From: Polaromonas sp. AET17H-212
GTDB taxonomy: Bacteria; Pseudomonadota; Gammaproteobacteria; Burkholderiales; Burkholderiaceae_C
Length of the DNA stretch: 64,000 bases
Assembly: GCF_002379085.1 (NCBI RefSeq)
Contig: NZ_NBZW01000007.1
Location: forward strand, 62,001-126,000
Direction: 5' to 3'
Shown here: positions 27,079 through 32,080 of the stretch, piece after piece
How positions within the stretch are numbered: the stretch's first letter is position 1
How the letters are laid out: every line of letters starts with the position of its first letter
The notes under the pieces: generated by a model
What the model saw: only the letters and a program-made list of their open reading frames with translations
Database searches by the model: none
Told to the model about the DNA's origin: nothing
Position numbers and translations under genes: made by a program

Positions 27079-28143
27079 ATGGCACTCGTTTCCATGCGCG
27101 AGCTGCTGGACCATGCGGCAGTCAACACCTACGGCATTCCAGCTTTCAACGTCAACAACCTCGAACAAGTCCAGGCCATCATGCAGGCGGCCGACGAGGT
27201 CAATGCGCCCGTGATCATGCAGGCCAGTGCTGGCGCCCGCAAATATGCCGGCGAAGGTTTCCTCAAACACCTGATCCAGGCGGCGGTCGAGAGCTACCCG
27301 CACATCCCGGTCGTGATGCATCAGGACCACGGCCAGAGCCCGGATGTCTGCCGCGGCGCGATCAACCTCGGGTTCAGCTCGGTGATGATGGATGGCTCGC
27401 TGATGGCCGACGGCAAGACCATTGCCGACTATGACTACAACATCGACGTGACGCGCAAGGTTGTGGAGATGGCGCATGCCACCGGCGTCTCGGTCGAAGG
27501 CGAACTCGGTTGCCTCGGCAGCCTGGAAACCATGCAGGGCGACAAGGAAGACGGCCACGGCACCGACGCGGTGATGACCCACGACCAGCTGCTGACCGAC
27601 CCCGAGCAGGCCGCTGATTTTGTCAAACGCACCCAGCTCGATGCGCTGGCCATCGCGATCGGCACCAGCCACGGCGCCTACAAGTTCACGCGCAAGCCCA
27701 CCGGCGACATCCTGGCGATCGAACGCATCAAGGAAATCAACCGCCGCATCCCCAACACCCACCTCGTCATGCACGGTTCGTCCAGCGTGCCGCAGGACCT
27801 GCTGGCCATCATCCGCCAGTACGGCGGCGACATGAAGGAAACCTATGGTGTGCCGGTCGAGGAGATCCAGAAGGCGATCAAGTTCGGTGTGCGCAAGATC
27901 AACATCGACACCGACATCCGCCTGGCCATGACCGCTGCGGTACGCAAGTTCATGGCCGAAAACCCGAGCAAATTCGATCCGCGCGAGTGGCTCAAACCCG
28001 CCACGGCGGCGGCCAAGGCCATCTGCAAGCAGCGTTACATCGAGTTCGGCTGCGAGGGCCAGGCCGGCAAGATCAAGGGCGAAGCCCTGAGTGTGGTGGC
28101 CGCCAAATACGCCAAGGGCGAGCTGGCCCAGGTGGTGCGGTAA
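27079..28143 (+). CDS. fba: fructose-bisphosphate aldolase, class II
   Basis: 354 residues. Zinc-dependent cleavage of fructose 1,6-bisphosphate. Class IIB (CbbA-type) sequence: [10 protein letters not shown] with the catalytic Asp and a zinc His, [22 protein letters not shown] and [10 protein letters not shown]. Together with pgk and pyk it makes a glycolysis/gluconeogenesis cluster; the type is also used in the Calvin cycle, but no other cbb genes are present. An intrinsic terminator follows, just before purC. Confidence 0.95.
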
Positions 28144-28181
28144 CCCGGAAAATCCTCGCCCTGCCGAACTGGCGATAATTC

Positions 28182-28210
28182 AAAGCTCGCCGCTACCGGC
28201 GGGCTTTTTT
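28182..28210 (+). terminator. intrinsic terminator after fba
   Basis: Ten-bp stem AAGCTCGCCG / CGGCGGGCTT with one G-T pair and a CTAC loop, running straight into a T-rich tract. It separates fba from purC, whose ATG is only 18 nt beyond. Confidence 0.85.
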
Positions 28211-28228
28211 ACTTTTGGCAAGCATCCC

Positions 28229-29137
28229 ATGACCTCCGCTCTCCACACCTCGGCCCTGACCTCCCTGCCCCTGCTCGCGCGCGGCAAGGTTCGTGACAAC
28301 TACGCTGTCGGCAAAGACCGGCTGCTGATGGTCGCCAGCGACCGGCTCAGCGCCTTCGACGTCATCATGGGCGAGCCGATTCCGGGCAAAGGCGTGTTGC
28401 TCACGCAAATGGCCCTGTTCTGGTTCGACAAGCTGGGTCATGTCTGCCCGAACCACCTGACCGGCGAGGCGCCCGAAAGCGTGGTGACACCCGCCGAAGT
28501 GCCGCAGGTCACCGGCCGCTCCATGCTGGTCAAGCGCCTGAAGCCGATTCCGGTCGAGGCCGTGGTGCGCGGCTACCTGGCCGGCAGCGGCTGGAAGGAA
28601 TACCAGGAGAGCCAGTCGGTATGCGGCGTGTCGCTGCCGGCCGGCCTGAAAAACGCCAGCAAGCTGCCCGAACCGATTTTCACGCCGGCGGCCAAGGCGG
28701 CGGTGGGCGAGCATGACGAAAACATCAGCTACGCGCAGATGGTCAAGGTCGTCGGCCCCGAACTGGCCGCGCAGATCCGCGACCTCAGCATCCGCATCTA
28801 CAAGGAGGCGGCGGCCTTTGCGCTGACCAAGGGCATCATCATTGCCGACACCAAGTTCGAGTTCGGCCTCGACGACAACGGCACGCTGACCCTGATGGAC
28901 GAGGTGCTGACGCCCGATTCCTCGCGCTACTGGCCGATCGAAGGTTACGAGCAGGCCTTCGCCGCAGGCACCAACCCGCCCAGCTACGACAAGCAGTTCG
29001 TGCGCGACTGGCTGGAACAGGCTCTGGTCAACGGCAAGCCCTGGGACAAGACGCCGCCGGCGCCGCGCGTGCCGCAGGACGTGGTCGAGAAAACCGCGGC
29101 CAAATACCAGGAAGCGCTGACCCGGCTGACAGCCTGA
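28229..29137 (+). CDS. purC: phosphoribosylaminoimidazole-succinocarboxamide synthase
   Basis: 302 residues. It joins CAIR and aspartate in purine synthesis. Motifs: [49 protein letters not shown] and [10 protein letters not shown]. The longer, roughly 300-residue form is usual in beta-proteobacteria. There is no ribosome-binding site and only 18 nt between the fba terminator and the ATG, so its promoter must lie within or before the hairpin (GATAAT at 28174-28179 is a possible -10). Confidence 0.95.
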
Positions 29138-29151
29138 CCGGCGGCTTGGTT

Positions 29152-29157
29152 TAAAAT
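29152..29157 (+). promoter_or_regulatory. -10 box of the metH riboswitch promoter
   Basis: TAAAAT lies 8 nt before the first riboswitch base, so the transcript would start at the riboswitch. No convincing -35 box. Confidence 0.45.
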
Positions 29158-29165
29158 ACCCGCAT

Positions 29166-29251
29166 CCCAAGGAGCGTTGCAGCGAAACCCCGTTTCGTCA
29201 GGCTTGGGTGACAGCAGGACCCTGCGGCCTGCCTTTGCAACGGCGCTCACC
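29166..29251 (+). promoter_or_regulatory. S-adenosylhomocysteine (SAH) riboswitch
   Basis: The leader shows the SAH aptamer layout. P1: GAGCG (29172-29176) with CGCTC (29244-29248), extended by TTGC with GCAA around a conserved CGG bulge. P2: CGAAAC (29083+100, i.e. 29183-29188) with GTTTCG (29192-29197). P4: CCCAAG (29166-29171) with CTTGGG (29203-29208). The conserved strings AGGAGCG, AGGC and CAACGGCGCTC match the family. It precedes metH, a classic SAH-cycle target. High SAH signals a need for methionine regeneration, so it should raise expression. Confidence 0.88.
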
Positions 29252-29269
29252 TTCGATAGCCAAGGTGAG
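29246..29269 (+). promoter_or_regulatory. ribosome-binding-site sequestering hairpin (riboswitch expression platform)
   Basis: CTCACCTT (29246-29253) pairs perfectly with AAGGTGAG (29262-29269), which holds the AAGG ribosome-binding site just before the ATG at 29273. The first three bases of the left arm are also the 3' end of aptamer stem P1, so the two structures compete. SAH-bound P1 should break this hairpin and open the site. Confidence 0.75.
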
Positions 29270-29272
29270 TGA

Positions 29273-32080
<2,808 letters not shown>

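Follow-up and report, generated by a model that had tools for sequence, protein, structure and literature searches.

A predicted SAH-responsive translational switch in the leader of metH in Polaromonas sp. AET17H-212, and candidate partners of the P1 3' strand in related SAH riboswitches

The window analysed in the present work is a stretch of 64,000 nucleotides from Polaromonas sp. AET17H-212, in which the leader of metH, a gene of the SAM cycle, has purC (SAICAR synthetase; 28091-29137) as its upstream neighbour. A search of the whole window with Rfam cmscan recovered a single match above cut-off, viz. to the SAH riboswitch family RF01057, at 29163-29255 on the plus strand (56.5 bits, E 9.4e-8; the cut-off for this family is 37 bits), upstream of the metH start at 29273. 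This match to the covariance model bears out the preliminary description of this DNA, in which an SAH riboswitch had been proposed for the leader. The features of the locus are listed below.

29152-29157, plus strand: TAAAAT, a probable -10 box (sequence; TANNNT conservation in metH loci)
29163-29255, plus strand: SAH riboswitch aptamer, RF01057 (Rfam, 56.5 bits)
29166-29170, plus strand: 5' strand CCCAA of the nested outer stem, partner 29204-29208 (Rfam alignment)
29172-29176, plus strand: P1 5' strand GAGCG (sequence; GAGCG in 110 of 111 metH loci, selected by a pattern tolerating two mismatches)
29183-29197, plus strand: inner hairpin CGAAAC/GTTTCG (Rfam alignment; fold)
29204-29208, plus strand: 3' strand TTGGG of the nested outer stem (Rfam alignment)
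29244-29248, plus strand: P1 3' strand CGCTC, common to the anti-RBS hairpin (sequence; CGCTC in 111 of 111 metH loci, selected by the same tolerant pattern)
29244-29253, plus strand: left arm CGCTCACCTT of the anti-RBS hairpin, which includes TCACCT (stem scoring, folding)
29262-29271, plus strand: right arm AAGGTGAGTG of the anti-RBS hairpin, with the Shine-Dalgarno sequence AAGGTGA at 29262-29268 (stem scoring, folding)
29273-32080, plus strand: metH, C-terminal part, 935 aa with the domains Pterin_bind, B12-binding_2, B12-binding, and Met_synt_B12 (ORF; domain search)

The target gene had been correctly named as metH, but it encodes the C-terminal part of the protein alone, without the homocysteine-binding domain. 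The sole PF02574 match of the genome is located on another contig (G000:C18:69047-69973); MetH is therefore split, with its C-terminal half encoded in the window and the other half elsewhere. Since Rfam found no SAH match around this homocysteine-binding half in the locus fetched for it (L208), SAH control is seemingly exerted on one MetH half only, and, as judged from the sequence, a single half of the split methionine synthase appears to be SAH-controlled in this genome. The genome contains two SAH matches in total, one in the metH leader and the other on contig C3.

The RF01057 alignment spans model positions 1-78 of 78 and contains all of the conserved binding-core blocks (viz. AGGAGCG, UGCA, CAGGCU, and CAACGGCGCUC). 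The helix GAGCG/CGCUC (P1), both strands of which had been noticed in the preliminary description, is present at 29172-29176/29244-29248; in the Rfam model it crosses the nested outer stem (29166-29170/29204-29208) and is hence the pseudoknot-side helix there, which UUGCA (29177-29181) and UGCAA (29236-29240) are able to prolong. In the outer Rfam stem, 2 of the 7 pairs are mismatched. A TANNNT site within 30 nt 5' of AGGAGCG occurs in 110 of the 111 metH loci, the present one included (a raw count), and 110 of 114 such sites lie at -16 to -22. Because TAAAAT stands in the window where 110/111 metH loci have TANNNT, transcription probably begins at the aptamer itself, close to its first base. 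A consensus scan of the leader detected no full sigma-70 promoter, only the -10 box being convincing, and the -35 box would therefore be poor or absent.

The 3' strand of P1 also belongs to a hairpin that covers the ribosome-binding site. An 8-bp hairpin had previously been reported here, and its core is present in the sequence (CTCACCTT, 29246-29253; AAGGTGAG, 29262-29269), but its true length is 10 pairs (29244-29253/29262-29271, one G-U included), the extra pairs being C29244-G29271 and G29245.U29270. The sharing of bases between P1 and this hairpin had likewise been recognised, but all five bases of CGCTC (29244-29248) are used by both helices rather than three (29246-29248). The Shine-Dalgarno sequence lies 4 bases upstream of the ATG at 29273, and TCACCT in the left arm is identical in sequence to the anti-Shine-Dalgarno core of 16S rRNA; an 18-nt string that we take to be the 3' end of this rRNA is present once in the genome.

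The minimum free energy fold of the free leader (-46.1 kcal/mol) includes the 10-bp hairpin, the stability of the leader as a whole being unexceptional (z -1.60), and none of 200 dinucleotide shuffles of the 60 nt downstream of P1 yielded an equally good stem (p = 0.005, the floor of this comparison). Because ViennaRNA takes account of neither the pseudoknot nor the ligand, folding of the platform (29242-29300) tests mutual exclusion only: the accessibility of the Shine-Dalgarno sequence is 0.012 when the platform is free versus 0.496 when 29244-29248 are kept unpaired, and the energy of the best fold is -14.9 kcal/mol in the former state and -3.8 kcal/mol in the latter. The accessibility of the whole right arm increases from 0.015 to 0.576 with P1 occupied, which places this locus among the clearer switches, and that of the wider start region increases merely from 0.41 to 0.59. 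The earlier statement that only one of the two helices can form is almost correct: P1 would in principle leave room for five pairs (ACCTT/AAGGT), but these do not appear in the best fold predicted without the P1 3' strand. A transcription terminator in the metH leader was rejected, as no terminator-like site was found by scanning 28900-29400, which fits translational control.

In the mechanism that we propose, the P1 3' strand together with the five bases that follow it (CGCUCACCUU) would pair with AAGGUGAGUG when SAH is lacking, and the Shine-Dalgarno sequence would be hidden. SAH would stabilise the aptamer, whereupon P1 would take CGCUC; by this capture half of the hairpin would be lost and the rest would become unstable, so that ribosomes could bind and metH could be translated. 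High SAH would signify that the turnover of methyl groups exceeds their recycling, and more MetH would be made in response. The SAH dependence of the metH leader is something that we infer from its family membership, and the binding of SAH, the direction of switching in the cell, and the physiological reason are likewise proposals. The SAH-ON direction predicted in the preliminary description agrees with the sharing of the strand and with the folding computations, and its reading of the locus is supported with three corrections, viz. to the length of the hairpin, to the place of P1, which crosses the outer Rfam stem, and to the extent of the gene, which is partial.

With the first 129 aa as the query, metH was identified in 145 of the 150 family genomes, the present one included, and upstream DNA was taken for all 145 loci (30 loci and 115 stretches, a few of which are shortened by contig ends). 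An aptamer was identified by pattern or Rfam in 122 of the 145, again including the present locus. Of the 144 loci with a recognisable MetH motif, 111 matched the pattern in both conserved blocks, and Rfam, which was applied to the 34 pattern-negative loci, found an aptamer in another 11 (8/20 and 3/14); in the upstream stretches taken for the remaining 23 loci neither pattern nor Rfam recovered one. The analysis of the platform covers the 111 loci that rest on the pattern, with the 11 Rfam-only loci left out. For each of them the P1 3' strand was scored against the next 60 nt and compared with 200 dinucleotide shuffles, at least two P1 bases being built into the score. By this measure, the stem formed by the P1 strand beats the shuffles at p<0.05 in 97/111 loci and at p<0.01 in 63/111, with a median of 8 pairs. 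The loci were divided into 75 proximal ones, in which the arm ends at most 12 nt from the start or overlaps it, 35 distal ones, and one (L189) that belongs to neither class, its stem lying past its start. Stems with p<0.05 are found in 73 of the 75 proximal loci, in 23 of the 35 distal loci, and in L189. Start codons of the relatives were assigned by the best Shine-Dalgarno match, and several of the distal ones are wrong (those of L086 and L113 fall inside the conserved protein), for which reason the boundary of the distal class is rough. One locus (L139) seems to have been misplaced as distal, because its arm GAGTGAG, which stands just before an ATG, extends 2 bases beyond the 60-nt search.

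In the proximal loci the left arm is CGCTCACCT in 56 of 75, TCACCT likewise occurs in 56 of 75, and AGGTGA stands ahead of the start in 64 of 75. In the free state 71/75 have a buried right arm (accessibility <0.1), and with P1 occupied this arm reaches a median accessibility of 0.34 over the 75 loci; both a closed state below 0.1 and an open state above 0.4 are predicted for 24/75. This limited opening arises because ACCTG/CAGGT can survive, and the proximal switch may, according to these models, be a graded one. The start region opens by >0.1 with P1 occupied in 45/75 loci and closes in 2. The pairs that follow P1, counted in a register set by the stem itself, are TA (60), CG (3), TG (3), GC (1), and AT (1) at +4, and GC (51), TA (5), and AT (2) at +5, so that compensated pairs by which the stem is maintained do occur. 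General covariation was sought by swapping arms between loci and proved weak overall, being strong for a few loci (L195 and L139), whose own partner pairs better than that of any other locus of their class. The mean score changes from 21.5 with the own arm to 20.2 with a swapped one, a drop so small that most of the stem signal represents shared consensus and not covariation.

The distal loci (e.g., L104, L119, L120, L201, and L204) have, tens of bases upstream of the start, a GGTGAG arm that matches the P1 strand. The arm is often located beside GC-rich repeats of the form GGCCGC...GCGGCC...GGCCGC. The folding model predicted no release of the start region on P1 occupancy in the 35 distal loci. 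A two-stage relay, in which the P1 strand would act on the GGTGAG arm and GC-rich segments would then act on the start, was tried for these leaders with forced and blocked pairs: the accessibility of the start rose by >0.1 in merely 2/35 and fell in 5/35 (0 and 5, respectively, in an earlier, unforced version), and the relay is hence not supported.

A different partner of the P1 3' strand was encountered in SAH leaders of other genomes. In a sample of the order, 124 of 150 genomes contain an SAH match, and six genomes from four families (G195, G238, G159, G188, G273, and G197) have two matches on the same strand less than 200 nt apart, both above cut-off and upstream of a frame that carries the AhcY motif. 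That such tandems were recovered from four families within the order speaks against an assembly error. Aptamer 1 is followed by a hairpin and a T-run (e.g., GCGCTCGCACCGGCAACGGTGCGAGCGCTTTTTTT), the P1 3' strand being the left arm of this predicted terminator. A pattern for the aptamer-terminator junction matched in 21 of 399 genomes of the order and in 104 stretches of named genome contigs, 80 of which were listed with titles. Both sets together comprise 128 matches, 107 of them with an SAH 5' block upstream and 88 unique by sequence, and among these 88 loci 70 have an AhcY motif downstream and 31 are tandem, the six of the order sample included. The tandem loci are as follows.

L217, L218, L220, L226, L228, L230, L232, L233, L245, L246, L252, L253
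L257, L260, L263, L267, L270-L273, L276, L277, L285, L291, L295
L296, L301, L306, L311, L312, L336 (L209-L214 are the six repeated from the list)

Rfam recovered two above-cut-off RF01057 matches in all 31 tandem loci (18/18 and 13/13). The T-run is present in 31/31 and a downstream AhcY motif in 30/31, the stretch of the remaining locus (L273) ending before the motif could show, and the median energy of the predicted terminator hairpin is -27.1 kcal/mol. In 28/31 tandems, P1 is GAGCG/CGCTC in aptamer 1 and GGGCG/CGCCC in aptamer 2; by this double change from A-U to G-C the pairing is preserved, and the two P1 helices come to differ from each other. As seen by eye, aptamer 2 has a binding-site hairpin in L228, L230, L246, and L271, for example, and lacks one in other loci, and a general binding-site hairpin could not be demonstrated by such inspection across the 31 tandem pairs. 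By their titles alone, most of the records are metagenome-assembled genomes of Betaproteobacteria or Burkholderiales; a species is given in some of the titles, viz. Bordetella parapertussis in those of L252 and L271.

Loci with other titles were also observed among the matches to the junction pattern. An SAH 5' block and a hairpin sharing P1 precede an AhcY motif in L223, L249, and L294 (titled Fimbriimonadaceae, Armatimonadetes, and Chthonomonas) and in L243 and L286 (titled Chloroflexi and Dehalococcoidia), with a T-run in all of these except L286. Either horizontal transfer or binning error may account for the SAH loci with non-proteobacterial titles.

For the window itself, the aptamer match, the shared strand, the conserved hairpin, and the modelled burial and release of the binding site make it very probable that the RF01057 switch controls translation of the split metH and turns it ON with SAH. 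Because five pairs outside P1 survive ligand binding in principle, the aptamer might bind SAH while the hairpin acts mostly as a constant brake or as an element of RNA stability. The rather closed right arm that residual pairing leaves in many loci (the median of 0.34 given above) agrees with such a brake, which we nevertheless consider unlikely, as in the window the predicted best fold lacks this residue and the binding site reaches an accessibility of 0.50, and as the stem beats the shuffles in 97/111 loci, even with the P1 bases built into the score. Control might also be mainly transcriptional, by intrinsic or Rho-dependent termination in the leader. In some SAH leaders the P1 3' strand does form part of a predicted terminator, and in 35/111 metH leaders the matching arm was scored at a long distance from the start; here, however, the matching arm is the Shine-Dalgarno sequence itself and 28900-29400 is free of terminator-like sites, which leaves this explanation very unlikely. 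The two mismatched pairs of the outer Rfam stem could, finally, be the mark of a degenerate aptamer that has lost the binding of SAH, but with 56.5 bits and with AGGAGCG-UGCA, CAGGCU, and CAACGGCGCUC intact such a loss is hardly credible.

Beyond the SAH-ON control of metH translation favoured here, we think there is a reasonable likelihood that SAH riboswitches are more modular than has been recorded, with partners of the P1 3' strand that vary (viz. a Shine-Dalgarno arm, as in the window, a distal GGTGAG arm, or a terminator), and that the tandem ahcY leaders constitute a two-checkpoint SAH-ON device, in which aptamer 1 would be joined to the predicted terminator and aptamer 2 would adjoin the ribosome-binding site. 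If true, such a device would exist in a class that is listed among those not found in tandem in the accessible portion of a 2022 review (Table 3; PMC9481103), and the tandem arrangements would amend this list; the accessible texts of the literature on SAH riboswitches, tandem arrangements, and ahcY yielded no report of tandem SAH aptamers. The tandem arrangement, although it lies outside the window, is the most useful new lead of this work, and the pairs provide a system for asking if two aptamers for one ligand sharpen the response.

With regard to known systems, the SAH riboswitch reportedly followed an SAH-ON logic in its original description of 2008. The metH leader corresponds to the RF01057 class end to end in its aptamer model, with no aptamer difference, and its target gene belongs to the same pathway. 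The target is here metH rather than ahcY, which has itself been published, as the available portion of a 2014 study assigns MetH to the SAH riboswitch regulon of Comamonadaceae as a taxon-specific member (PMC4239095). The second SAH riboswitch of the genome (G000:C3:41414-41488; L002) is of the same class (54.6 bits) with ahcY (PF05221) as the next gene, and its P1 strand is by eye likewise complementary to a downstream GGGTGAG arm; it differs in that a long stretch separates this arm from the ahcY start downstream, and hence its platform, as judged by eye, is another one. A CTCACCCG/CGGGTGAG hairpin is seen by eye on the P1 strand of this ahcY leader, the ahcY start being far downstream. The SAM/SAH riboswitch (RF01727), which is termed translational in the available portion of one account (PMC10516623), shares the pathway but is a different family, and Rfam cmscan found no match to it above cut-off in the window. 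The anatomy of the platform across the family is not met in the available portions of the published accounts and may be an addition of the present analysis. The metH leader is an ordinary switch of an already described kind; neither its class nor its target nor the SAH-ON logic is new. It is consistent with the regulon as published, to which the family-wide platform is here added, and, with its conserved platform, it offers a clean and testable case of a riboswitch that is predicted to turn translation ON with SAH.
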